The notes under the pieces were generated by a model. That model searched no databases. It was given only the letters and a program-made list of their open reading frames with translations, and had not been told where the DNA came from. A stretch of 64,000 bases of DNA from contig JABAKD010000010.1 of assembly GCA_012845835.1 (NCBI GenBank), forward strand, positions 9,233,599 to 9,297,598, in the 5' to 3' direction. A program made the translations under genes and the position numbers. This document shows positions 23,952-39,934 of the stretch, one piece after another (position 1 is the stretch's first letter; every line of letters starts with the position of its first letter). This DNA comes from Undaria pinnatifida (lineage: Eukaryota; Sar; Phaeophyceae; Laminariales; Alariaceae).

Positions 23952-24049
23952 GAAGGAGTGCCCAGTACGCGAACAAAGAGCATACCCATCTACTGATCGC
24001 CGGGGAAATGTCTGTTGACCCCGATAAGCTGCATATCATCCGCTCTAAG
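23952..24049 (+). CDS. NADAR-fusion exon A
   Basis: Acceptor after TTTTACGTGCTTCCCGCAG, donor AAG|GTGGGT. Encodes [20 protein letters not shown] and [10 protein letters not shown]. An in-frame ATG at 24008 could be the start if no upstream coding exon exists. Otherwise one base comes from an upstream exon. Confidence 0.6.
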
Positions 24050-27000
24050 GTGGGTTGCACGGAGCGCTCTCCGGTTTGCATGTGTAATGCTGCTTTATAA
24101 TCCTCCTATATGAGTACCTACCAACCCTCAGTTTGCCCTGCGGGTATATAGCAGGAGCGACAAGTCGGTTCTTACTTGTCCGTAGTATTGCATGCCCCGT
24201 AGGCATCTACCATGCACGGACGTATCGGTCCGCTTTCAATTCCTATCCCTTGACCAACAAAACGGACGCCTATTCGCCTGATCGTCACGTGTTGCTTTGC
24301 TTGTCCCAGTATGTACCGGTACCCGGTAAGTTGCTTGTCCCTACCCCACCAGCTGGTCTCCACAATGCCATTATACCGCTCTGGTGACTTGTTGTCTGTC
24401 GTCCACTCTACCTCCTCTTATCCCATAGCCGCGACATGACTCGCATTCGGATGCTATCCGTCACTTTGAGGGAGACTACGAGTGCTTGTCCAACACGTAC
24501 AAGTGCCCGGTGTCCTTGCGCGGGGATTCGGAACCCTACCCCAGCGTCGAGGTGAGGGCATCTGCTGCACCGCCGCCGCCGCCACCGCTGCCAAACTGCA
24601 GCTAGATTCGTCCCGAGGTCCCCGCGGGTGTGCTTCATACTGGTGTGTAATACGACGAATAGTTTTCGGTTCAGCGAGACTTGACATCGCCTTTCAGTTT
24701 GTTGGGGGTTGAGGGCACCGCCGCGGGGAAATGTAGAACGACTGCAACAGCAGCAGCAGCGACAACAACAGCAGTCAGTGTCCCCCCTGCGTGGCCGTTA
24801 CTGTAGCCAAAAGATTTCCCTAACACGAAGGATGTTTCATGCGTCTTTCGCATCGGTTGACGACGTACCGGGCACGATGTACCTGCTGCGGGTTCTGCTT
24901 GTATGGGTTCAGGGTCCTGAGTGGTAGACACACTTGCTTCGCGCGCACCCGACCTGTCCTCTGGGTGCGTCCGGACGCCCATATCACGCCTCGAATTGTG
25001 ACCTATAACATTCATTGGATCGTAGAAGCAACGAGGCTAACAACTACTAATGCTGTACGTACTGTAGTATTGCCAACAGGTACTAATAATACTATCGTAT
25101 CCGATTTACTACTCGTACCAGGCATCCTCGCTCTCTCCTGCCACATTGTTTGCCATCATTCTGATGCTGTACCGATCGACTCGCTCCATATCGATTTCAT
25201 TGCTGCTGCTCCTACAGCACGCCCTGCAAGCCTCGAAGACTGACGATGCCGAGCTGAAGAACAGCATACGGCAGGCCAAGAACGCCATCGAAGCAAAAAA
25301 AATCGCACGCGTAGTGAAGGTGACAACGACGATTAGCCGCTCTCAGCCAAAAATGTTACGATGGTTGACGCCCTTGGCAGACAGCCGTCAAAGGGCCGTC
25401 AAGCCTAGTATGTCGGTTGACGGGACCTCTGGCTCTTGACGAACAGCCATCGAGGACCCTTGACGGACAGCCGTCAAGGATCTCCCGCTCACGCTATTAT
25501 ATTAAGTCTAACGTGGCCTTGCGGGGCCAAACCTAGACCGTCAACTGAAACATGAATATTTTCTCTGAAATCAGCTATAACAAAAACGAAAGTCCTCTAC
25601 GACGTTTCATAACCGAAGCAGAAAGTAGAACAACAGCACGAGATGTACCTTTGGCAGTAAGCCCGCTGTTCCTTTGAAAGGCACGCGTCGCTCGATGTTT
25701 CAACACCGTAAGCGAAAAATTTGCCAGCGAATGTTAAAAGCAAGCAACAACTCCGTTTGCTCTCGCTGATCGTGTCGAATGAATTGTCGCGCGCTCGCGC
25801 GACACACTGCATGCAGCCCGCGCCGAAGTGGCGGGCCGAGTCGGAAAGAATCGTGGAGGCCCTCATACGAGACAAGTTTAGACGCAACGCCAAGGCCAGA
25901 GAGATTCTGATCGGAACGGGCCGCGTGAAACTGGTGTACACCAACAGCCACGAGGACAGAGTCTGGGGCGTGTGCGGCGGTGAGAGCAGCGGTGTGTTTT
26001 GCGACTTCCGCGCATGCATGTCATGTGGATGCTTGGTGTTGGTTGGCAGGAAAGACGCGCATCCCAGGTGGGTTCTTGACGGTCGTAAGAAGGAACTACC
26101 TGTTCTACTTCAGTCACGTGACTAAGTCGCCTCGTGCCGCGGCGTCGTCCCTGAATGATACCTGGTTGCTGGTAGCGTCTTTCAGCTGAAAGGAGAAGGT
26201 TGTTATAGTCTGGGAACCGAACTAAAAAGAAAAATTTTGTTTGTTGCGAGAACGAATCATGAATGATAGCGTCTTACGGGGCTAAACATCGCTTTTGATG
26301 CGCTCCTAAACGCTATGATGGGAACTCGCCAGGGGTTTGCCCGGAGATTGCTAGCCTGAGAGGATTCGAACCCAAAAATATAGTTTTTGGTTGTCAGAAG
26401 GAACTACATGTTGGGCGGCTCCAGTCACGCGACTCAAACACTTCACTCACGCACCTCAAATAGCCCATCAGTTAGTTATTGCTAATAAGCACTTGGTAGA
26501 GCGGCGCTTGGTAGTTCTCTCGCGCGAGACCAGTACTTGGCTACTGGGTGTGGGAGCGCTGACTCAGCGCAGCTCGGCGCCGCAGGTATGCCCCCCCCAG
26601 CTGCGTCGTTCTATCGACAGGTCCATGACATCGGCGCGTCAGGACGAAGGTAACGACTGACGGTTTTTAATTTTCAGCCGCGCCCGCCAGCGAGTGGAGA
26701 GCATGGGCGGCACGATTATTACGTTTACGTGTCGCAATTACAAGCAATACGGGGCGGGGGAAGGGGGGGGTGATGAGTTAATATTTCGACGCGTAAACCT
26801 TGCATCCCGTGTTTTATTGTGGGCGTGCGTTCTTTGGCTTCCTTTCGTTGAACCGCTTTCTCGGCTTTCTGTTGCTCCTTATTATTTTAGGCAAGGGTGA
26901 AAACAAGCTTGGGAAGCTGCTGGAGCGGGTCCGGGCGGACGCACTTGCTGGCAAGGACACCGACGTGTGGTGCTCCATGCGCTTCCAGCTGGCCACCCCG

Positions 27001-30000
27001 CTGGATGTTGCGGTGGATTTTGCGGTGACCAAGGGCGGAGAGGTTGTGGCGGAGCCCTCCTTCGAGGGAAAGCCGATCGTTAGGATGGGTGAGACCAACA
27101 ACGTAAAGTGATAAAACTCAACTCTGCTAACCCGTTTTGGAATTCAAGTTTTTACTGGATGAATAGTTCCGTAGGCGTAAGTTTTCTCAAAGGGGAAAAA
27201 TGGTCGAAACAGTGCGACGATTACAACATATTTCACGCGAATTAGCCCGGGCTGCTGAGATAGAAGATGACGCGTGCTGCGATATCTAGGTAGCGCTTTT
27301 CGGCAAAATGTTTTCTGAATGACGGGCCCCCTTAAGCCACAACCCTTGGAAGGTCATTCTTGTTTTCCAATGTGTGTGTGTGTGTTTTTTTTATGCCTAA
27401 GCCGTTGATTTGGTCATGGGGGTGCACTTTCATTTTGCTCATTTTATTAGTATTTTTTTCGGGCCATGTGTAGAGCTCCTCGCGTGAAAAGCCTCAGAAG
27501 CAAAATGGTGCACCGATACCGTACTACACAATGGTGCACCGTTACCGTACTGTTAGTAGCATGTGCCCGAAGTGCAATGGAAAGACATGTACGACACGCG
27601 CGAAGCACGCAGCATGAAGATATTTTGTGTTGCCACCGGCCCTCTGTTGAAGGTTGACTAAACCGCAACAAGTGCCGCTTCTTTGGACGCTAGACTGGGT
27701 CCTGAAAGGGTGAATAGTGCTGCCGGTCTTGTGTTGCACGCGTAGTTGCTTACCTTCGTTGTCACTCAGCTGTGCTTACGCCGTAGGGGACAACTCGTAC
27801 AGACTGCGGATGTCCTGAAATGTCGCTGTTGTGGGATTCCTATGTCTCGCCCGAAATTCGAATATGAAGGTATTGACCGCAGGAACAGTCGACCCTTCCT
27901 CCGAGAGGTGTCCCGAGCATGTTATGGTTCCGTAAGGGGCTATGTATGACACGTTTACAAGTCGCGGAAGTTTTTGAATGAGCACACGGGCATTCAAAAC
28001 GCGTTCGGAGGTCGGTGCCTTCAATTTCGAGTTTCGGGCGGGATGTCTAGCAGTCCATAGTTCAAAGTGTAGGCATCAGCATTATGTTGCTATGCCCAAT
28101 TGGTCTTGTCGCTTGTGAGCACGTGGGGGTAAGGGAGGGAATGTAGGCGGAGGAGTTGTCGGCCTAAAAGGCTCGACGCAAACTCGACCACCACCCGTTA
28201 GAGCGCATTCTGTGTTTGTCGAATTCCTTTTCACACAAATGCTTCGGCCGCATCTTTTGGGATTTCGACCGAGCGGTTTCGAAAACGCGAACGGGAAAAC
28301 GCTGTTCTCACGGGCATTTTCGCCAAGTTTACGCAAAACCCGTCCTTGAAACTTAGCACTGGTAATTAGCTCTCTCTCTTCTTTGGCTCACCACCAGCGC
28401 TTAAAAGATGATGTTCCACGGCCGGGTTTCGTGTAGACTTGGCGAAAGCGCCCGCGAAAGCAACGCGACCGGGAATTCGATTAGCGCATAATTGCGTTCC
28501 AACACGTGGTGGTCGGATCCCCAGTCGCTCAAAGGCGTCGGCGGCAGCGTTCGGGGGGTTCGACCACGCGGTTTTGGGAGCAAGTTTATGCAAATCCGGC
28601 CGTGAAACAGCACCTTTTTGAGCAGTCATGATGGACTTTAATTGTTTTTAAAGCATATCACCAGTGCTCAGAAGGTGTTGTCATACAGCCGGATATGCAT
28701 AAACTTGCGAAAGGGCCTGCGAGAACAGCGTTTTCCCGTTCGCGTTCTCAAATCGCGTGGCCGAAACCCAGCCGATGCGTCTGTTCAACTGGGGGTCCGA
28801 CGAGCATATGCTGCGCTCTGATTTGTGGTGGTCGTGGAAGAGGTGAGCCTTTGGAACGCGAACGGGAACACGCTATTCTCGCAGTCGCTTTACGCAAAAC
28901 CCGGCCGTGAAACAGCACCTTTTTAGCACTGATGATAAAATCTTTTTTTTTTCAAGTTATCAGCAGTGTTCAGAGGGTGCTGTTCCATGACCGGGTTTTG
29001 TGTAAAGCATCGAAAACAACGCGACGGGGGATTCGACGTTCACATACTGCGATCCAAAGCGTGGTGGTCGGACCTCCAGCCACACAAACGCATAGGCCAC
29101 AGCGTTCGCGGTTTCGACCCCGCGTTTTTGGGAACGCGAACGGGAAAACGCTCTTGCATCGGGCACGTTCACCAAGGTTACGCGAATCCAGCCGTGAAAC
29201 AGCACCTTTTTGAGCACCGGTGACAAGGTTTGGTTGTTTTTAAAGTTTATCACCAGCGCTCAGAAGGTGTTGTCACACGGCCGGATTTGCGTAAACCTGG
29301 CGAACGTACTCACGAGAGCAGTGTTTTCCTGTTCACGTTTCCAAATTGCATGTTCGAAACCCCGAATGCTGCAACCGATGGGCCTTTTTTTGCCAGTGCT
29401 ATCAGCAGTGCTTCGCAAAGGGGATAGACGTTGGGGGGGGTCGGCCGAAAAGTCTCGACTCTACCACAACCACCACGCCTTGGAACATATAACGTGGAAC
29501 ACGCTATGCGCCCGACGGATCCCCCGCAGTACGCATCGGCCGCAGTGTTCGGGGTTTCGACCATGCAGTTGTGAGAAACGCGAACGGGAAAGCGCTGTTC
29601 TCGCAGGCATTGTGGCGAAGTGTAGGCAAAACCCGACCATGAAACAGCACCTTCTGAGCACCACTGATAAGCTCTTTTTTTTGCAAAGCTCATCAGCAGT
29701 GCTGCGCAAGTGCTGCTCCATGACCGGGTTTTGTGTAGACTTGGCGAATGTGCCGGGGAGGACAGCATTTTCCCGTTCGTGTTCCCCAATCGCGTTTTTG
29801 TTGAAACCTCGCCGATGTATTTGTGCGACTGGGGATCCGACGAGCACGTACTACGCGCCAACGCGTGGTGGTCGTGGAAGAGTTGAGCCTTTTCTGCCGT
29901 CGTCGTTTTTTTTTTTTTTTCTCAGCGTTTCTCTTCAGCATTAGCTTGGGCGACCGCGGACGGCTCTGTGTCAAAAGTTAGGTTTTCCTTATTTTAAGCG

Positions 30001-33000
30001 AAGCGAGTTTCTAACTTACGGCGGCGCCCCAAAAACAGGGGCTCTTTTCCTACCTCGCGTGCCCGAACCTCCGTGTCCCACCCAACGACCGGCATATAAA
30101 AAAAGAAAAGATAAAAACGAGGAGCGGTCGAGGTATTTCTTTCATAACACACTTTTCTGCTTCCCGCTAACCCACGTTGTTGATGACAGTGACAAATAGC
30201 CACTGGCATTAGCTCCTGCGAAGCTACGAAGAGCGTGTGAAAATATGTTGTCCTTGTTTTGTTCTGCGGTTCGGTAATGGTGAGGACGTCGTTCGGATAA
30301 TACTACGCGTAGCATCAGGTAGTTCTTGTGTCGGATACCAGTGCCATGTGCAGCTTTTTTTTTTTACTCGTCCTTTGCTGTTGGTGTGAAGTGTGTTGGT
30401 GCATTTTCACCGACCATGAATTACTGTGATACTGACACAGGTATTCTGAGGGGGCGCCTTTTTTTTGCTTTTTGTAGAGATTGCGTGTTCCAGAATTCCT
30501 GTTGTTTGTTTTTTCGCCTCCGACCGGCTGTGGTCGATTTACAGCCCAAGATAGCCGTATATTACGCGAAGTAACAGTTGTTGTTCTCACATTAACTCGC
30601 ATAATCAAGTCCGTGGTCACAGGACAGGCTCCAGTCACTCTGGAGCTGAGGAATACCCCAGGGAAAAACACACAACCCAAGGTGGTACACGCATATATCA
30701 TAGCTGACGCAATTCATGCCTCCACCAGAAACATATAAAAGTGAAATCGGGAGTCAGTCTACGATGTGCCAGGTCCATGCCGGTGCATACGTCTCATTAC
30801 TCACGCCTGGAGAAACCAACTATTCCGATTGCCACCCAAGGAAGACTACCACGTATATATTACACGTAGTATCTATCACTACGCATACGCACGACAGGCG
30901 TAAGTCAAGAAAAAGGAAACAAAGAAAAGAAGAAAAGATGAAGGAAAGGAAAGAAGAGAGAAGAAAACGAAACAAAACGAAAAAGGCAAGAAAAGAGAAG
31001 AAAAAGACAAGAAAAGCAAGAAAAGAGAAGACAAGAAGAGGAAGCAAGGCAAGGAAAAAAGAAGAGAAAAAAGAAGAAAGAAGAAAAGAAAGAAAAATGT
31101 CATACTAGGAGACCCTAGGAACTGGCTAAGGATGGCATTGGGCTCACAGAGGGTATCACGTCCATCATCAATGGCACCTGGGAGAGAACGCAACATGGCG
31201 TAGAAGTCAGGGCGGTCTTATGCTATCTTGTGACGGCCATTAGAAGGCCCACAACTTTCAATACGATGATGGCCAAACCCAGACTTCAGTCTCTTGGGCA
31301 CGACGCTCCTCCTTCCCCCCGTCCCCCCTTCCTCCCTTTCCCCCTCCCCCCTCCCCCCCTCCGCCCCTCCCCCAGTCCCCTCCCCGCCCCCCCCCCCTTC
31401 CCCCTCCCCCCGGCTGCTTAGAGATGCCAACGGTGGATGGCGCTGCCGCAGCCTTTGCGCGTCGCTCTGCAGCTTTGCGTCTCTCCGTTTCATGCATGAA
31501 CAACTCGGCTCCCTCCTCTACCCGTCGAAACCATCTGCCAGCCTTCTGAGCAGCCTTTCGCCATCCTTCGAATTTCATTCCAAAGACCGACATATCCTCC
31601 TTCAGATGATCCATCCAGCCTTTCTCTTGCCCCCCTGAGTAGCACTTACCCCCAACAAACTCCCCAAACATCACCCTCTGTGGCAGACGCTCCTCCCCCA
31701 TACGTGCCACGAATCCCGCAAACAAAATCCTCCGTTTGCGCACTATCGCCTCAACGCTCTCGGAAGCTGTCTGGGCAAACGCGTCGGCGTACGATAGGGT
31801 GTGGTCGTTGCGCTTCCGTTTCCGCCATTCAAGGCATCGGAGGAGCATGGAGCGGTGAACCCATCGTAGCCTGTCATAGTCAGGCTTCTTCGGGCTCCAC
31901 GTCATGCAACCGTACAGCAGTGTCTCGACCACCTCAGCTTTCAGCAACCGCACCTTCAACCGTAAACGCACACCCGGGCGATCATAGATTTCCATCTTGT
32001 ACCGCTGGAAGCACGCCCAGGCCCTCTGAAGACGCCGCGTTATTTCAATGCTAAGGTCTCTGTCTGCGGTGATAGCCCCGCCCAAGTATACAAACTGGAT
32101 TGTTTGTTTGTATACCTGGCCGTCTGCATTGATCGTGAAGGACACCTTACCCTCGCTTTTGGTTTCCAGGCACATTATCTCTGTTTTTGCCCCGGATACT
32201 GTAAGCCCGAACGACGAGCACGCAGTCATTATCACCGTCATCATCCTCTCCAGCCCTTCTGATGATCGCGACATGATGCCCGCATCGTCCGCGTACAGCA
32301 TACCCCACGATCTCTGCACCCCCTCCCCCTCCTTCCCCCTCCGTCCGTCGACTTTGCCTGTGCGTGAAGTGCCCTTCTTCTCGCCTTCCTCCTTTCGCTG
32401 GAGCTGCACCATGTTGTCCGTGATGGCTGCATCAGCGAGGAAGCGTTTCTCGCCCACACGCAATACCGCCGTGAAAAACATGTTGAACAGCAGTGGCGCG
32501 AGCACACATCCTTGCCTGAGACCTTGCCCCACGTCGACTTATCCGAGCACTCTCCATCATCCAGCCGCACGCATGCTTGCATACCGTCGTGGAATTGGCG
32601 GATGACGGCGAGCATTCTCGGTGGCACGCCAAAACGAGCAAGGACATCTCACAAAAGGCTTCGGTCGACGGAGTCGTACGCTTTCGTGAGGTCGATATAG
32701 CACATGTACAAGGGGATGTCCTTCTTCCGCGCCAGTTCCTGCAGTCGTCGTAATACGAACATCATGTCAACCGTCGAGCGTTGGGGTTTGAACCCACACT
32801 GTTCCTCCGGCGGAATGTTCTCGCGTTCGCAATAGTCACTCAGGCGACCCGCGATGACTTTGAGGAGTACTTTGCCGGCGTGAGCCACGAGGGAGATGCC
32901 ACGATAATTGCCACACTCAGTCCGATCTTTCTTTTTGTGAAGCACCTTAATCGTTGCATCTTTCTAGTGCTGCGGTACGCCACCTCCCCTCCACACGGCG

Positions 33001-36000
33001 ACGATGATATCGTGGAACTTTCGGAGGGTGTTTTCTCCGCCGGCCAAAACCTTCAAGAGCTCGGCCGGGAGACCATCGGGCCCTACCGCCTTTCGGTTCG
33101 CCAACGCCCGGATCGCCTCCTCTACTTCGTACCTAGACGGGACACCGTCCAGTGGTCTGCACGGGGGCCACTGCTTAAGCTCGTCCACAATGCTCGGATC
33201 AAGGGTCGGAGACTTGGTGTTGAGCAGTTTGTGAAACCACCTCACCTACCGCTCGCGGATGAGGGCATTATCCCGCAGCAATCGACCTTCCTCGTCCTTG
33301 ATGTACTGCGAGTTAAACGTCCTCTTCCCTTCCACATCCATCCCCTTGAGGTGTTGTAGAAGCCAAATTGATCACCTTCTCGGATACGCCCTTCGAGTTG
33401 GCTAACGTAATCTTTGAAGAACCTCTGAACAGCTTCCGCCCGCGTGCGTTTCAGCTGTTTGATGGTCGCCTTCAAGGCTTGCCGTAGACCACGATCGTTT
33501 GGAGCAGAACGGACCCGTTTCCTCGCGTCTTCCCTATCCTGCCATCGTGCATTCAACTCCGCTCTCGTCTCCTTGGTCGCACACCAGCCCCTCGGCACTT
33601 GTTTGCGCCGAATAGGGGGCGCTATGTCGGCGGCATTTGACAGTAGCGTCTCGGTCAGTAATGAGGCCATGTCATCATCGCTTCCGGCATTAGTACCGTG
33701 TGTTGGAGAGGCAAGGTTGGCTGCTATCGCATTTTGCAAATTTATCCGTAAATGCGGGTCCGCCATCAATCTTTGTAGATCAATAGCTCGCCGGTTTTTG
33801 ATAACTATATTTGGACGATTTGGTGCGATGCGGCCTAAGAGGCGAATATTTGCTATCACGAGGTTGTGGTCCGACTCGGCGTTCTCCCTGCATGGAGTCC
33901 GCACAGTGACATTACGTACCAATCGTCTATCCACTTGCCGTGTCAGTATGTAGTCAAGTCTGTACTGGGCCTTTCCTCGGTTAGGGCTCTAAAATGTATA
34001 CGATATACCACGAGCAGGTGTAGCATAGTACGTGTTGAGGAGTGCGAGTTTGTTATCAGTTGCGTGAGTCAATAGTCGCTCTCCGTTGTCGTTCAGCTCG
34101 TCACGTCCGTATGCACCCAATACCTTGCTGTCGGTCCACTCGATCCCTCTCGTGCGTGTACGAGCATTTGCGTCCACCAGGACAAGGAGGTGGTCCCTAC
34201 TGGGTACCTCCTTGACCACCTCGTCAAGTGAATTCCAAAAGTAATCCTTTTCGCTGGTGCTCTTGTCGAGAGTGGGAGCATAGCCTACAATGAAGGACAC
34301 ACCGTTAGATTTCCCTTTAAGTTGGATGCGAACCTTCATCAGTCTAGCACTGATGCACTCAACCGCGACGTCGCCCTTATCCATCCCTGCCACGATAGAC
34401 TCTCTAACAGCTAAGCCTACCCCGTGGTTCCCCTTCTTTTCGTACTTTCCTCCGTCTGCTCCTGAGCAAAACACAACATACCCCGCCGCCGTGAAAGCAC
34501 TTTTTCCATTGCGCCTCACCTCCTGCAATCCTATGACATCACAACCTGCGTCTTCGCAAGTCTTCATTATCACCTCGGCGTGGCCTATGCCGTTCGTGCC
34601 CTTGAAAGCTAGTGTTCGAACGTTGTACGTACCCACGACGAGTTCCCCTGCTCTCGACCTAGCCCTTGCATCTGAGCGGATTTTGTGAGAAGCCCTTCGA
34701 ATCCTCCTGCGTCTCCTCCTCTTCTTCCGAGCCTCCGATTTCCTCCATTCCACCCTCCGTTTTTCCCAGACAGAGTATTTCCCCCTCTCCGTCTCCCTTC
34801 GCCCAGCCCGGTTCTTGCTTAAGTGCCGACGTGAAGGGGGCAGCAGTCCCGACACGCCACGTCCATCTCCTTTCCGACTTTGGCGCTTACTCACGTGGGT
34901 TTGATCCTCTCTTCTCTGTTCGATACGCGCCTCATGCTTTCCGCGGCGGTGATGCGACACTGCGTCCGCAGGCAAGGCTGCTGCGTTAACAGTATGTCGC
35001 CACGGACCAACAAGCATGGTTGAATTGAAGCGTCAGCACCAGATCCACACCCTGACGTTTTACATGGTCTCCTCTTTGCCGCCAGTACAAACGCGCGCCG
35101 GGCGTATCTCGCTGCTTGCGAAAATGAATATCGACGACTCGATCGGTCGGACTCACAGCAGCCGACGTATTTGCACATGATTTGACAGAACTAAAAGGAC
35201 GCAGCTACGCACCAATCAGCGGGGTTGAGTTGAAGTGTTGACACGAGGCCCACGCCATGACGCTTTCACATGGTGCCCTCCTTGCCGCCAGTACGATCTA
35301 AAGGTACGCAACCACGCCTTAACCAGCGAATGGTGACCACGCGCCAACCAGCTTGCTTAACGGGTCAGCACAAGACGCCACCCTAGCGTTTGACATAGTG
35401 CTCTCCCTGCCTCCCGTTTCGAACTTCAAGTACGCAGCCACGCGCCCATCGCCAGCTCCTTAAGAACCACATCCTGAAGTTTTTTCATGGTGTCCTTGCC
35501 GTGGTTGGCTTCGATGTTTTGTTGTCGTCTTTGATGTTGTGTTGTTGTGCAGGTAAGCTGACCGACAATGAGGTGGTGATGGCCCACCCTTCGGTAAGCC
35601 GGTCGCACGCTCTTTTAGTGGTGGACAGGACCTTTGGGGCGTTTCTCGTGGATCTGGGTGCCTCCAACGGATCTTTCCTCGACGGCCGGGTGTGTGTGTC
35701 CGTTGTGTTGGTAGTTTTCGTTTTTTTTCCCGGCCGTTTGCTATAGTCTTGGTGTAACCCCTCTAGAGTTTGTGCCGCACCGATATTTTTTCATCGCCAA
35801 AACATGAAATAAACAAAAACATTGGCAGCGCGATCTGGTCAGTCTTCAAACCCTGTCTCGCCATGTTCGTAACCGCTCCTTGCATACGGATTTTTTTCAT
35901 GATGACCCAACCTTTTGTTCATTATGCTTGTTGTATTGAGGTCTCTCACACGATATCATCCGTGGACTACCAAACATGTCAGGAAACAGCGGTCTAGACC

Positions 36001-39000
36001 CGCGACGGACGGTGGTCTAGGCCTGTGACGGACAGCGGTCTAGACCTGTGACGGACGGTGGTCTAGACTTATGTACTAATTTTAATACTGTGGGAACTTC
36101 TAAAGGTGTGACTGAAGACGTCCAAAATTGCCGTCTCCAGGCATCTTTGTGAAACACCGGCCCTAAGCATTGACCCTCCCTCCCCCCCTCTCAACCACCC
36201 CGCCTCCCCCCGATCTGGTGCAGCGAGTGACGCCTTACGTCCCCGAGCCTGTGAAAGCAGGCGGCGCGCTTCTGACTTTCGCGAAGTCTAAGCGAACGTA
36301 CACGTTAACGCGGGTGGAGACGGATCTCAGGGAGGCCAAGAAAAACCTGCTTTACGCCAACATGTCGGACCCCACCGCGTCTGTCGGTCAGCCGGAACCG
36401 GATTCGACGGTAGGTTTGTTGTCTTTTCCTCTGCCCCACCCGAGGGTGCACGAAAACAAAATTGTCGACACTGCAGCTTTGGTTCAGAGGCTCAGACAAG
36501 GAGGGGGTGCTCATTCCATGCATACCTGTTCTCATGTCCGCTCTTGCAAGTTCTTGAATCGTTATTGGACCCGTTCTTGTTGTCAAAATTGGCGTTCGCA
36601 GTGCTAGCAGTTTGTTTATGCGTATGTGCTTGTTCGACGTGTGTCAGTGAAGAGCAGCGATTGCAATGAGTTTTCGGGGAGTGTCACTGAGATGTCGTTT
36701 GTTTCACTTTTTTTTTGCTCGGTCGGCTGCCAAGACCCACAATTTGATGTCTCGCTGTCGGCTGTGATTGCGCTGTCTTCGTTCACGACTTGTGTATTAT
36801 ATGGGAGTCTGAAACCCGTCAGTGCGTCACCGAGGCCTCGGAAATCACAGCAGCAACCCGCTCGCCCCAAGAAACTCTGATCGTTGTAATTCCGTACGAG
36901 TAGGATAGATTTTTTAATCCGGTATTTGCGTCTGGTTTGGGTATTTGTCTGCGCCTGCGCCAACCCTCTGCCTCCGCGTCCAATGTGCCGCATGAGCGGT
37001 CGTATATTGCAACGCGGCGCATGTTGCTACTGTATGATACACATTTTTTTTTCTGCTCGGTGGTGTTTGCGGATTGTCCGATTGTCCTTAGGTAGGGTGC
37101 GTGGATCAAGTCGTCTGTCGAGGAGAAACAACTGCCATGGCAAGAATGTCCGTTGTAGCTGTGATAAAAGTGTCAGGTGCTGTGACAAAAATGTCGGCTG
37201 CGTAGGCAAAGCTGTCAAACGCTGTGACAAGAGTGTCAATTGCTGAGGCAAACATGTCGATTGTTGTGACTAGAATGTCAATTGCTGTGGCTTGAGAGTT
37301 TCAATTTCCGTCATCAGAAATAAGTTGTTGTGACCAAAATGTCCATTGCTACGGCAGGAATGCCAATCGCTGTGACCATAATGCCAAGTGCTGACAAAAA
37401 TGTCCATCGCTGTGACAATAATAAAATTGCCATTTTGCTTTGACCAGAAACGTTTATTGCTGCGACAAGAATGTCTATTGCTGACAGGAAGGTCACTCAC
37501 TTTGACGAGAATGCCAATCACTCTGACGAGAATGTCAATTGCGATGACCGGAAATTCAGTTGCTGTGACCGGGATGCCATTGGCTGTGGCAAGAAATGTT
37601 ACTTACTGTGACTTTGTTGCGCCTACCGACTCCAGGTTTACGTGGGTAACCTGGAGCCGTCTGTGACGGAGGATGACCTCCGTGAGTTCTTCGCCGACTG
37701 CGGGAACATCGCGTCGGTACGTACCGCCGCCATATAGCTGGTGTTTTGTGCGCATGTGTGCTTAGCCTTGTGCTTTTTTTTTTCCACGATGTGTATAGTT
37801 GGAAGTGCGCTGGCGATAAATCTCAGCGCCCAACCGTCGTGTCCTTGAGCTTGAAAGCTCGCAAGCCTTAAAAGTGGAATATCTACTTGTTTCGTACTTG
37901 CATGCGCTACGTACCGTATCTCAATCGTGGGTGTGCTTCCCTCGTGTTGGACTACTCGGACCCTCTAACCTGGGGCGTCTGATGCATCTTCAGCCACCCA
38001 ACCAACCAATTCCATCCTCCCACCAACGTTGGATGGGAAATCGACGAGCAGCGGGAGCGCTGAACCCTATGCGCGATACAAATTATAAAACGTACAGGGG
38101 GGAAAAGAGACGACACCTGCGACCACGGGTTGTCTAGAAGGTCGCTGAGTTGTCCAGAACATCGGTGAGGTTGAAGCTTCCTACGAGTTGAGCTGGTAAG
38201 CAAAAAGCGATGATGAAAAATATAGAAGCTCGAGCTATCTCCAACCTCCTAGAACGCCAACCTCTAACCACCAACTCATCCGTTCTCGTGGTGCCCCTCG
38301 CTTTGGATGAAAAATTGTCTGCGCAGATCCGCATCCCGCAGGACAAGGACACGGGCAGGATGAGAGGCATCGCTTTCGTCGCATTCACCAAGCACGTGGG
38401 GGTGCTCCAAGCCCTCGCACTCCACATGGACGACTTGAAGGGGCAGAGCATCAAGATCAGGCGAGCCGACGCCAAGGCCGACAGCAACAAAAATACGGCC
38501 AAAAAATCTTCTCACACGCGACCCGGTGGCCCCGGGGGGGCTGATTCTACCAGCAGTGGCGCAGCATCAGGGGCCGCCAAGAGTAGTGCGGGATGGGGGG
38601 AGCAAGCTTCGGGGAGGGGACAAAGCGGCGGCGGTACGGGGGGGGTAGGCGCACCCGCGCAAAGCAGCGCGCTGGAGCTGGCAACGGCAGCAATTATTAG
38701 GGCGGCGGCGGCAGCAAGAGCTAACGCGGCGGCGGCGGAGGCGGCGGGAGCTCCACCTGCAAGCAGCGGCGATTCTAAGAGACGGACCATGGGCGACGAA
38801 CGACACATATCGAATTCTAAGGAGGAGCGAGCTGGAAGGGACAGCGGCCACAGGCGGAAGCGCGTTAATAGGTGGGGCGATTCTGGGGTCCAAGAAGGCG
38901 GTATCTCGTTGGCGACGGCAGCGGCGGCTAGCGTTGACCAGGTGGAGACGCAGGCGAAAAGGAGACGGATCGAGGACGGACAAAGAGGGGGGAAGGATGC

Positions 39001-39934
39001 TGGAGGAAGAGAGGAAAGGGACGCTGGAGCAAGAGGGGACAGGGACGCTGGAGGAAGAACGGAGAGAGACGCCGGACGACGGGAGACGAATGCTGGAAGA
39101 AGGGAGAGGGATGCTGGAGAAAGAGGGGAGAGGGATGCTGGAGGAAGACATGGGAGGAATGCTGGAGGAAGACAGGAGAGGGATGCTGGACGAAGAGAGG
39201 ATAGGGGTGCTGGAGGGGCATCTGGCCGTAAGAAGGGCGTGTCCCGCAACGAGAGCAGTCGTGGCGGGGGCCGGCATGGGGACTACGACGATGGAGGCCG
39301 TGATGGTGGGCATGGCCGGGTTCGCAAAGGAGAGGATGGGCGACGGGGCAGCGAAGACCGTGGTGGTGGTGGTAGTGGTGGTAGCGGTGGTGCAAGGGCC
39401 GCTCTCGACGGACGGGCTGAAGGAGAGAGAAATCGGGACGATCTAAGGGATGACGGCGTTGGTGGTGCCGGTGGTGGTGGCAGAGGTGATCGGAAAGGAG
39501 AGAGACAACGTGACAACAACAGTGCAAGCTCAGAGAGGCACGGCGCCAGGGATGGGCGTAGGCGAAGAGAAAACGGCGACAACGGGCACCGGGTTCACCA
39601 CGGTAAGACGGAGGGAGAGCGCAGGGAGCGTGAGGACGGAGACCGACGGCATGGGGAGACCTCTCGTCGCGAAGGGGATGGCAGGAAGGCGAGTCACAGA
39701 CAGAGCGAGGAGAGGGAGCATCGAGGCAGGGGTCACGGCAGTGTCGGCGACGAAGGACGACGTCGGGATGGCCATCGAGAGGGCCGGGCGGATAAAGAAG
39801 GCGGCACGAGGGGTGCTGAGGACGGCAGGACGGGGCGGGGGATCAGGGATCACAGCGGGCGCACAGTCAGGCGCGAGGAGCGACGGTCGAGGTCGAGATC
39901 GAGATCCCCTGCTGGCTCACGCAATCGACGGTGA
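23952..39934 (+). CDS. NADAR-FHA-RRM-RS fusion protein, nine-exon model
   Basis: Exons: 23952-24049, 24429-24551, 25218-25319, 25817-25979, 26891-27088, 35553-35689, 36224-36409, 37636-37716, 38327-39934. Every junction is GT-AG and phase-compatible, giving about 897 residues plus an unresolved N-terminus. Residues 42-178: complete NADAR domain ([59 protein letters not shown]). Residues 195-310: FHA ([18 protein letters not shown]). Residues 336-410: RRM (RNP2 VYVGNL, RNP1 RGIAFVAF). The remaining ~480 residues are Gly/Ala, then Arg/Asp/Gly repeats, ending in an RS-type tail. NADAR enzymes cleave N-glycosidic bonds of riboflavin-pathway intermediates or remove ADP-ribose from guanine. FHA binds phosphothreonine and RRM/RS point to nuclear RNA. 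Role as an RNA-linked glycohydrolase is inference. Confidence 0.85.
24429..24551 (+). CDS. NADAR-fusion exon B
   Basis: Acceptor CTTATCCCATAG, donor GAG|GTGAGG, 41 codons in phase 0. Contains the start of [23 protein letters not shown] and EPYPSVE. Confidence 0.8.
25218..25319 (+). CDS. NADAR-fusion exon C
   Basis: Acceptor TGCTGCTCCTACAG, donor AAG|GTGACA, 34 codons in phase 0. [10 protein letters not shown]... continues PSVE from exon B to give the family hallmark PSVEHAxQAxK. Confidence 0.85.
25370..25480. repeat. Short ttgacgg.cagccgtcaa inverted/direct repeats
   Basis: The word gacagccgtcaa and its complement-like ttgacggacag recur about five times in the intron after exon C. Confidence 0.5.
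25817..25979 (+). CDS. NADAR-fusion exon D
   Basis: Acceptor CACTGCATGCAG, donor GGCG|GTGAGA. Encodes [19 protein letters not shown] and [16 protein letters not shown], the C-terminal half of NADAR. Confidence 0.88.
26891..27088 (+). CDS. NADAR-fusion exon E (end of NADAR, start of FHA)
   Basis: Acceptor CTTATTATTTTAG, donor [25 protein letters not shown] completes [20 protein letters not shown] and EGKPIVRMG resemble the first FHA strands. Reading through the donor would give a stop at 27109-27111, so a shorter NADAR-only isoform by intron retention is possible. Confidence 0.82.
28190..29960. repeat. Array of alternating inverted repeats, about 250-450 bp apart
   Basis: Five junctions (about 28360, 28610, 28910, 29205, 29650) show gtgaaacagcacctttttgagca facing atcaccagtgctcagaaggtg, that is, head-to-head copies. 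Between them run arms with gaacgggaaaacgctgttctc and its inverse. The composite could fold into multiple hairpins. Confidence 0.75.
30580..31130 (+). mobile_element. Purine-tail repeat family P, copy 1
   Basis: Starts with a gttgttgttctcacattaac head, then ccgtggtcacaggacaggct, a central acatataaaagtgaaatcgg block, cacgtatatattacacgtag, and a roughly 200-bp almost pure A/G tract (30905-31097). It ends gtcatactaggagaccctag. Colinear with 53342-53926. No coding potential beyond the Lys/Arg or Phe/Leu-rich frames forced by the tract. The class of element is unknown. Confidence 0.8.
31258..35017 (-). pseudogene. LINE endonuclease-reverse transcriptase ORF, inactivated
   Basis: The endonuclease (about 34640-33930) is interrupted by TAG at 33989-33991 with the frame continuing unchanged. 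A frameshift lies near 33355 in the linker. TAG at 32964-32966 and TGA at 32649-32651 interrupt the RT in frame, and a second frameshift lies near 32537. After it a 424-residue open frame carries the YADD active site (about 32290) and the C-terminal region. The stops fit single transitions from Gln or Trp codons, as judged from the surrounding family pattern. Full-length intact copies elsewhere would be expected to be about 1,200 residues. Confidence 0.9.
31258..35178 (-). mobile_element. Decayed non-LTR retrotransposon (LINE), antisense in the host intron
   Basis: Reading leftward: a basic N-terminal region, an APE-type endonuclease domain ([40 protein letters not shown]), linker, reverse transcriptase ([49 protein letters not shown]), then a C-terminal region ending in a Gly-rich tail. 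Related small tandem units lie just 5' of it. Broken by three in-frame stops and two frameshifts. Confidence 0.92.
35026..35504 (-). repeat. Diverged tandem units 5' of the LINE
   Basis: Three to four related units (starts near 35026, 35232, 35359, 35462) share gaagcgtcagcac, ccctgacgttttacatgg and ctccttgccgccagtac words. Position directly upstream of the LINE coding region resembles 5'UTR promoter monomers of some LINEs. That role is inference. Confidence 0.5.
35553..35689 (+). CDS. NADAR-fusion exon F (FHA core)
   Basis: Acceptor GTGTTGTTGTGCAG, donor CGG|GTGTGT. Encodes [20 protein letters not shown] and [16 protein letters not shown]. The Ser, His and Asn of the phosphopeptide site are present. 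The usual GR is GK. Confidence 0.85.
35989..36069. repeat. 23-bp tandem repeat
   Basis: About 3.5 units of ggtctagacctgtgacggac in the intron between exons F and G. Confidence 0.8.
36224..36409 (+). CDS. NADAR-fusion exon G (end of FHA)
   Basis: Acceptor CCCCCCGATCTGGTGCAG, donor ACG|GTAGGT, 62 codons in phase 0. [20 protein letters not shown] and [11 protein letters not shown] supply the last FHA strands, followed by a linker. Confidence 0.82.
37140..37605. repeat. 22-bp tandem repeat, about 20 units
   Basis: Units of the form aatgtc.attgctgtgac.a with frequent substitutions fill most of the intron between exons G and H. Confidence 0.85.
37636..37716 (+). CDS. NADAR-fusion exon H (RRM first half)
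   Basis: Acceptor CTACCGACTCCAG, donor TCG|GTACGT, 27 codons in phase 0. Encodes [19 protein letters not shown] with RNP2, then ADCGNIAS. Confidence 0.88.
37860..38200 (+). mobile_element. SINE-like copy 2
   Basis: aaatcgacgagcagcgggag, gctgaaccctatgcgcgata and gaccacgggttgtctagaag match the body of the SINE at 57749-58084 in the opposite orientation. Lies in the intron before exon I. Confidence 0.6.
38327..39934 (+). CDS. NADAR-fusion exon I (RRM second half, RGG/RS tail, stop)
   Basis: Acceptor [35 protein letters not shown] carries RNP1. After [10 protein letters not shown] the sequence becomes low-complexity: Ala/Gly linker, repeated RDAGGRxE blocks (about 39000-39220), Arg/Gly/Asp-rich stretches and a final [11 protein letters not shown] before TGA at 39932-39934. 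The open frame continues 5' of the acceptor into SINE-derived sequence, which is not coding. Confidence 0.88.
   Translation: MRIPQDKDTGRMRGIAFVAFTKHVGVLQALALHMDDLKGQSIKIRRADAKADSNKNTAKKSSHTRPGGPGGADSTSSGAASGAAKSSAGWGEQASGRGQSGGGTGGVGAPAQSSALELATAAIIRAAAAARANAAAAEAAGAPPASSGDSKRRTMGDERHISNSKEERAGRDSGHRRKRVNRWGDSGVQEGGISLATAAAASVDQVETQAKRRRIEDGQRGGKDAGGREERDAGARGDRDAGGRTERDAGRRETNAGRRERDAGERGERDAGGRHGRNAGGRQERDAGRREDRGAGGASGRKKGVSRNESSRGGGRHGDYDDGGRDGGHGRVRKGEDGRRGSEDRGGGGSGGSGGARAALDGRAEGERNRDDLRDDGVGGAGGGGRGDRKGERQRDNNSASSERHGARDGRRRRENGDNGHRVHHGKTEGERREREDGDRRHGETSRREGDGRKASHRQSEEREHRGRGHGSVGDEGRRRDGHREGRADKEGGTRGAEDGRTGRGIRDHSGRTVRREERRSRSRSRSPAGSRNRR
39000..39225 (+). repeat. Coding minisatellite in the RD/G-rich tail
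   Basis: Units of about 24 bp (gggatgctggaggaagagag and variants) repeat about nine times inside exon I and encode RDAGGRxE-type octapeptides. Length variation between individuals would leave frame intact. Confidence 0.75.

Follow-up and report, generated by a model that had tools for sequence, protein, structure and literature searches.

The window analysed here, a stretch of 64,000 nucleotides from the brown alga Undaria pinnatifida (contig JABAKD010000010.1, positions 9,233,599 to 9,297,598, in assembly GCA_012845835.1 of 511 Mb in 68 contigs), carries on its forward strand a gene that joins a NADAR domain, an FHA domain, an RRM, and a long Arg-rich tail. Nine exons between positions 24008 and 39934 splice to a product of 879 residues, with agreeing phases and GT-AG borders at 8/8 introns. 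The spliced product matches exactly the public gene model P0001 (jgi/Undpi1 HiC_scaffold_10.g04297), whose label Undpi1 we take to denote Undaria pinnatifida. An earlier note on this DNA, made from the letters alone, had described nine phase-consistent exons beginning at 23952. The exon count and the junctions that it gave (27088/35553, 36409/37636, and 37716/38327) proved correct, while its start did not: coding begins with the ATG at 24008, the opening MSVDPD is common to the brown-algal orthologues that have an N-terminus, and 23952 lies at best in the 5' untranslated region.

Exon 1 (24008 to 24049) holds the start codon and 14 residues, matching residues 1 to 14 of P0001, and its DPD is kept in orthologues. 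A microexon near 24309 was considered and dropped; P0001 joins exon 1 straight to 24429. The NADAR domain starts in exon 2 (24429 to 24551), which includes Glu55, continues through exon 3 (25218 to 25319), which opens with HALQASK and thereby supplies Lys62, and through exon 4 (25817 to 25979), which encodes Trp94, Tyr130, Asp136, and Trp139, and ends in exon 5 (26891 to 27088). The first FHA strands are also encoded by exon 5. After an intron of 8464 bp (27089 to 35552), exon 6 (35553 to 35689) supplies the FHA core with its SxxH and SNG motifs, and exon 7 (36224 to 36409) the FHA end and a linker. The first part of the RRM, with RNP2 VYVGNL, lies in exon 8 (37636 to 37716); exon 9 (38327 to 39934) contains the remainder, with RNP1 RGIAFVAF, followed by the Arg-rich tail (mostly of low confidence in the structure model) and the stop codon.

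The profile search of the joined protein placed all three domains above their Pfam cutoffs in the order that had been proposed: NADAR at residues 29 to 159 (87.6 bits; cutoff, 35.1), FHA at 207 to 266 (43.5 bits; cutoff, 20.7), and RRM_1 at 318 to 386 (61.5 bits; cutoff, 20.7). The FHA match thus starts ahead of the end of exon 5, which falls at codon 209.3. In the predicted structure, the first FHA strands span residues 184 to 210 and the remaining strands are encoded after the 8464-bp intron; a break at this intron would therefore leave an incomplete FHA domain on both sides. The structure model of P0001, built on 35 sequences, has block values of the predicted local distance difference test score (pLDDT) of 91 to 98 over residues 21 to 300, including the linker between NADAR and FHA, and of 94 to 97 over residues 321 to 390. 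In total, 444 residues, mostly in the tail, score below 50. The model supports assignment of the N-terminal domain to the NADAR fold, and from it we infer that NADAR and FHA may form a rigid unit.

Searched against its own genome, P0001 gave 15 matches. Eight are exons at this locus, and the other seven lie at other sites and match the RRM, FHA, or tail only weakly; on this evidence, the gene is apparently single-copy in Undaria. The long intron contains, on the reverse strand (31258 to 35017), the decayed remains of a non-long-terminal-repeat retrotransposon, with reverse transcriptase and endonuclease frames in separate open reading frames (RVT_1, 43.5 bits; Exo_endo_phos, 20.9 bits, under its 24.5 cutoff), which plausibly accounts for part of the intron's length. 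A degenerate 21-bp minisatellite occupies 37158 to 37422 and 37497 to 37548, in the intron preceding the first RRM exon.

Spread of the architecture

Within the searched region (P0001 residues 15 to 409), three Ectocarpus proteins share 83 to 84% identity over 96% of the length, and three distant proteins share 34 to 35% over 94 to 98%; both levels are well above chance. The earlier note had asked whether the same domain order exists in related genomes. Three protein searches, read through precomputed Pfam labels, yielded 40 database proteins with NADAR, FHA, and RRM. This set was selected by hand from the labels and counts the near-identical Ectocarpus proteins P0003 to P0005 separately; the N-terminally partial P0006 and P0085 were kept, and P0007, which has no NADAR, was excluded. 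All named carriers come from brown algae, namely Ectocarpus, Laminaria, Discosporangium, and, going by its label, Undaria; the remaining proteins are eukprot, mmetsp, and metagenome entries. Continuous orthologues include Ectocarpus P0003 to P0005, the partial P0085 from Discosporangium, and P0031, a transcriptome-derived entry that fits the three domains into 437 residues and lists mmetsp, labeled "type:complete," among its sources. Together with the FHA domain split by the intron, these 40 proteins bear out the proposal of a single gene.

In an alignment (A4) of 35 of the 40 proteins (P0004, P0005, P0029, P0042, and P0085 are absent), each of the three domains was matched in 35/35 members, NADAR at an E value of 0.001. 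Domain order is based on Pfam coordinates for P0001, P0024, P0030, P0031, P0054, P0064, P0074, and P0085 and on colinear alignment. The partial P0085, outside A4, reached 33.4 bits for NADAR (cutoff, 35.1). Chrysophaeum taylorii P0074, outside the 40, combines NADAR and FHA with an RRM match that falls short of its cutoff (18.9 versus 20.7 bits). An extra CCCH zinc finger follows the RRM in P0030, and P0029 carries such a label too.

We found no description of a NADAR-FHA-RRM architecture in the open-access literature searched. The NADAR superfamily, the RRM, and this kind of FHA domain are each known already. New here are the architecture and, as described below, an aromatic residue in the NADAR pocket. 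Among the matches listed for NADAR and the spliceosome, judged by title and counts, the only NADAR-domain case was SNA-3, a factor in nematode SL1 trans-splicing and likewise a NADAR protein in nuclear pre-mRNA processing (PMC9303266). SNA-3, compared by description only, has three NADAR domains and, according to that paper, no homologues outside nematodes; the portion of the paper available to us mentions neither FHA nor RRM. The Ectocarpus stress-induced DUF1768 protein Esi0017_0056 is also a brown-algal NADAR gene product, again compared by description. It has 391 residues, DUF1768 is the one domain named in the available text, and its closest relatives are two other Ectocarpus proteins, followed by prokaryotic ones (PMC7922944).

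Several further relatives were seen in these searches. A group of short NADAR proteins (P0057 to P0063, P0065 to P0070, P0072, and P0073) is related to the kelp family, with Arg at the position of Lys62 and often Glu at that of Asp136; they may be family members whose gene models are truncated. P0079 carries a precomputed PF01467 (CTP-transferase-like) label in addition to NADAR, and P0075 has a piece of a KdpD sensor after its NADAR, possibly as a gene-model chimera.

The NADAR pocket and its origin

In the NADAR protein of P. nicotianae, ADP-ribose is held by E43, K50, W89, E125, D130, and W133, among others (PMC11543638; PMC11125620). The catalytic residue in the last strand is Glu (E125) in the YbiA subfamily, Asp in the BC4488 subfamily, and His in phages (PMC11125620). 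At the equivalent position of the Escherichia coli C7 NADAR, D171, the changes D171A and D171N both abolished efficient hydrolysis (PMC11543638). The mapped equivalents of the six P. nicotianae residues in Undaria are Glu55, Lys62, Trp94, Tyr130, Asp136, and Trp139 (the numbering of the 8bau chain runs two above that of the paper, with the same spacing). With Tyr in place of Glu, Asp, or His at this position, the Undaria domain falls outside the YbiA, BC4488, and phage NADAR subfamilies.

This replacement is shared across the family. Tyr occupies the E125 slot in 23 of the 40 three-domain proteins, Phe in 16, and His in 1. P0064 and P0074 carry His and may represent intermediates in the loss of the acid. 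The rest of the pocket is kept: the E43 slot reads Glu in 37, Gln in 1, and a gap in 2, and the K50 slot reads Lys or Arg in 38 and a gap in 2. In a separate alignment, the 8bau row was shifted by one residue at E43 and was set aside. Mean pairwise identity over the NADAR region is 45%. A single residue makes up at least 95% of 23/137 columns, and these 23 include the slots of E43, W89, D130, and W133. The K50 slot is 89.5% Lys and otherwise Arg, and the Tyr130 column is 57.5% Tyr. As controls, we used NADAR domains from the planctomycete phylum, taking the better-scoring 30 of the 42 matches listed, in 34 of 294 genomes; because it was drawn this way, the set leans to canonical NADARs. Of these domains, 29 hold Glu in the E125 slot and one holds His, and Glu, Lys, and Asp occupy the E43, K50, and D130 sites in 30/30. 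Relative to YbiA, the P. nicotianae NADAR, and the DarT1-linked NADAR (PF08719), the kelp protein differs by the Tyr in this slot, the fusion to FHA and RRM, and the Arg-rich tail.

At 11 bacterial loci in named genomes, the slot holds Glu in 7, Tyr in 2 (L016 and L019), and Ser in 1 (L018), and L021 is a fragment. The hosts of L016, L018, and L019 are Myceligenerans, Nocardia, and Actinomadura; the K50, acid-slot, and D130 residues are all missing in these three, which are perhaps degenerate or repurposed NADARs.

To place the kelp domain among other NADARs, 119 domains (67 from the family, 40 prokaryotic, 8 from retrotransposons, 2 from phages, and 2 metagenomic) were joined in a FastTree tree with midpoint rooting. 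All but one of the 67 family members (66/67) formed one clade with a support of 0.986, with P0084 outside. The eight sampled retrotransposon NADARs formed a separate clade, for which the tree gives no support value. Descent of the family from the abundant retrotransposon NADARs is thus not supported. A viral origin was likewise set aside: the scan of viral contigs gave two relatives, both stand-alone NADARs, one (L010) with Glu at the slot and the other (L009) with Asn there and Glu as the next residue.

Retroelement NADARs are themselves numerous in the Undaria genome, with at least 150 scored NADAR matches, 1,454 first-look candidates, and many copies in open frames of up to 2,473 residues (e.g., L001 to L008). 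In L002, an open frame of 1,036 residues, the NADAR at 387 to 536 is the sole Pfam match and has Glu at the slot; a retropepsin-like DTG and then a reverse-transcriptase-like stretch follow downstream, as judged by eye. Copies of this type resemble the lineage of Gypsy NADARs described from Ectocarpus (PMC12477816), here at high copy number. They share with the kelp gene the presence of a NADAR in brown algae and differ from it by the retained Glu (L002), the separate tree group (eight sampled), and the retroelement-like open frames.

FHA domain, RRM, and Arg-rich tail

Compared by sequence with the PDB, the FHA domain had kanadaptin and NIPP1 as its first two matches, with SNIP1 ninth of 22. 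By fold, the best matches included kanadaptin, DDL, Pml1p, NIPP1, and chain X of human Bact-type spliceosomes (entry 7dvq, listed under the SNIP1 sequence in the PDB sequence search); FHA domains with other functions also matched, as expected of a common fold. Judged by the top two sequence matches and the fold matches, the closest relatives are FHA domains of the NIPP1/SNIP1/kanadaptin kind. To our knowledge, NIPP1, SNIP1/Pml1, DDL, and kanadaptin carry no NADAR; their likeness to the kelp protein lies in an FHA domain that is nearest by sequence (kanadaptin and NIPP1) or among the best by fold. The phosphothreonine site of FHA domains is marked by G-R, SxxH, and NG residues. In the 40 proteins, the site reads G in 40, S in 40, R (in SRxH) in 39, H in 38, N in 36, and G in 37, but the Arg expected after the first Gly is mostly Lys. 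The RRM motifs are largely kept, with an aromatic residue at RNP2 position 2 in 40/40, Phe at RNP1 position 5 in 39/40, and Ile at RNP1 position 3 in 34/40.

There is functional precedent for FHA domains of this kind. That of NIPP1 binds phosphorylated TP motifs of SF3B1 and CDC5L (PMC12994818), and SNIP1 needs its own FHA domain to bind RNPS1 (PMC10166177). Because its FHA domain is closest to those of kanadaptin and NIPP1, the kelp protein likely has a role in RNA processing. The tie to phosphorylation-dependent RNA processing suggested in the earlier note therefore gains support from this FHA kinship and from the kept parts of RNP1 and RNP2. A fusion of RES-complex parts (the FHA of Pml1 and the RRM of Snu17) was also considered, and is a lead only, as the RRM fits many RRMs about equally well.

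SR proteins consist of an RRM followed by a long domain of RS/SR repeats. The Undaria tail has 477 residues (20% R, 22% G, 17% D/E, and 9% S) and contains 45 RD, RE, DR, or ER dipeptides, 11 RS or SR dipeptides, and 3 RGG motifs; a classical RS look is confined to approximately the last 20 residues. The description of an RS/RGG tail was only loosely right; the composition is mostly Arg/Gly/acidic with a short RS end. The tail includes a coding minisatellite with a 24-bp unit (38983 to 39216, forward strand) that encodes repeated RERDAGGR-like units, and it is longer than those of Ectocarpus (370 to 373 residues). With tails cut by motif, which gave none for P0042, P0047, P0050, and P0074, RS/SR dipeptides ranged from 0 to 36 across the family (36 in P0025 and 30 in P0010, both distant members). 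In these sequences, a basic tail is common in the family and a true RS domain is not family-wide.

Possible roles: reader, eraser, or scaffold

We propose that the kelp protein is a conserved eukaryotic factor associated with pre-mRNA, and that the pocket of its NADAR domain binds an ADP-ribose-like ligand but hydrolyzes it poorly, if at all. This is the likeliest of the readings considered here, and we regard it as evenly balanced between right and wrong. Its RNA-processing part is drawn from domain kinship, and its reader part from the residues kept and lost. The FHA domain would dock, through a phosphothreonine, onto a partner protein in splicing or mRNA surveillance, much as the FHA domains of NIPP1 and SNIP1 do; the RRM would hold RNA and the basic tail would supply further RNA or protein contacts. 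The pocket, with its equivalents of E43, K50, W89, D130, and W133, would bind an ADP-ribose-like group (candidates are ADP-ribosylated guanine, an NAD-type cap, or a free ADP-ribose derivative), and the NADAR domain would read or sense this ligand while hydrolyzing it weakly or not at all. A fuller version is tentative: in brown algae and other eukaryotes, a NADAR that lost its acid to an aromatic residue and kept its pocket was linked through a spliceosome-type FHA domain and an RRM to pre-mRNA, where it senses ADP-ribosylated or NAD-capped RNA or a free ADP-ribose stress signal.

A number of observations weigh against this proposal. The register of the last strand is in some doubt, as phmmer pairs Tyr130 with the YbiA Glu but Thr131 with the 8bau Glu. 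Position 131 is acidic in just 2/40 proteins (one Asp and one Glu), and therefore neither register has a conserved acid. MAFFT aligns the family here without gaps to three sequences with the pattern E-x-N-x-x-x-D-x-x-W-G, namely P0011, P0012, and phage L010 (phage L009 has Asn-Glu); the Tyr130 register is favored because of this gapless alignment. Tyr at the slot also occurs at 2 of the 11 bacterial loci, although these two (L016 and L019) have no K50 and D130 equivalents either. A domain without the acid may still be active: the E43 and K50 equivalents remain, phage NADARs with His at the slot are active (PMC11125620), and the slot mutation data in the available source cover the E. coli C7 NADAR only (PMC11543638). 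On the RNA side, the sequence ranking places several functionally unrelated FHA domains between NIPP1 and SNIP1. Unlike in the NIPP1/SNIP1/kanadaptin kind, the conserved FHA Arg after the first Gly is mostly Lys in the kelp family (Lys in 36, Arg in 2, and Ser in 2 of the 40), and phosphothreonine binding is thus not certain. The RRM matches many RRMs and points to no RNA target, and the Undaria tail lacks the makeup of a classical RS domain, which sets the protein apart from SR proteins.

The principal rival is an active eraser, i.e., an ADP-ribosyl-guanosine hydrolase or N-glycosidase that the FHA domain and RRM would bring to RNA and in which Glu55 or the aromatic slot compensates for the missing acid. 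The other pocket residues are present in nearly all of the 40 proteins, NADARs reversed the ADP-ribosylation of guanosine RNA, unlike every other hydrolase family tested (PMC11833690), and, as noted, phages tolerate His at the slot. We nevertheless consider this doubtful, given Tyr or Phe in 39/40 proteins versus Glu in all of the 30 controls but one, which has His, and the loss of efficient hydrolysis in both D171 mutants. The earlier note had favored an active N-glycosidase or ADP-ribosyl-guanosine hydrolase; with Tyr130 at the slot, and Tyr, Phe, or His in the 40, the residues do not support such an activity. Of its suggestion that the protein clears ADP-ribose from RNA, removal appears the less likely half because the acid is replaced, and binding may still occur.

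Alternatively, the NADAR fold could serve purely as a protein- or RNA-binding platform with no ADP-ribose-like ligand. Loss of the catalytic acid fits such a scaffold, and SNA-3 offers a parallel, as it is an essential trans-splicing factor in whose NADAR domain 1 the known catalytic residues are not kept (PMC9303266). We view a pure scaffold as unlikely, however, since all of the other five pocket residues except Lys62 fall in columns conserved at 95% or more, and Lys62 itself is Lys or Arg in 38/38 proteins covering it, at a mean pairwise identity of 45%. Such conservation suggests that a ligand may still be bound, though some of these residues may serve the fold. Finally, two adjacent genes (NADAR alone and FHA-RRM alone) or a gene-prediction artifact, for which the 8.5-kb intron with its retrotransposon and the closing of the exon 5 frame at 27109 to 27111 if read through might speak, are scarcely credible and were rejected because that intron cuts the FHA domain itself and all three domains occur in 40 proteins, including P0031 with its mmetsp source.

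The reading of the kelp protein as a pre-mRNA factor with a ligand-binding NADAR bears on the role of RNA ADP-ribosylation within healthy eukaryotic cells, a modification with known writers and erasers. Here, one chain unites a fold associated with guanosine-linked ADP-ribose, a phospho-reader related to those of splicing factors, and an RNA-binding domain, in a protein that is apparently single-copy and widely conserved. The kelp protein thus offers a concrete handle on whether nuclear RNA carries ADP-ribose, and its family a natural test of the role of the last-strand acid in NADARs.

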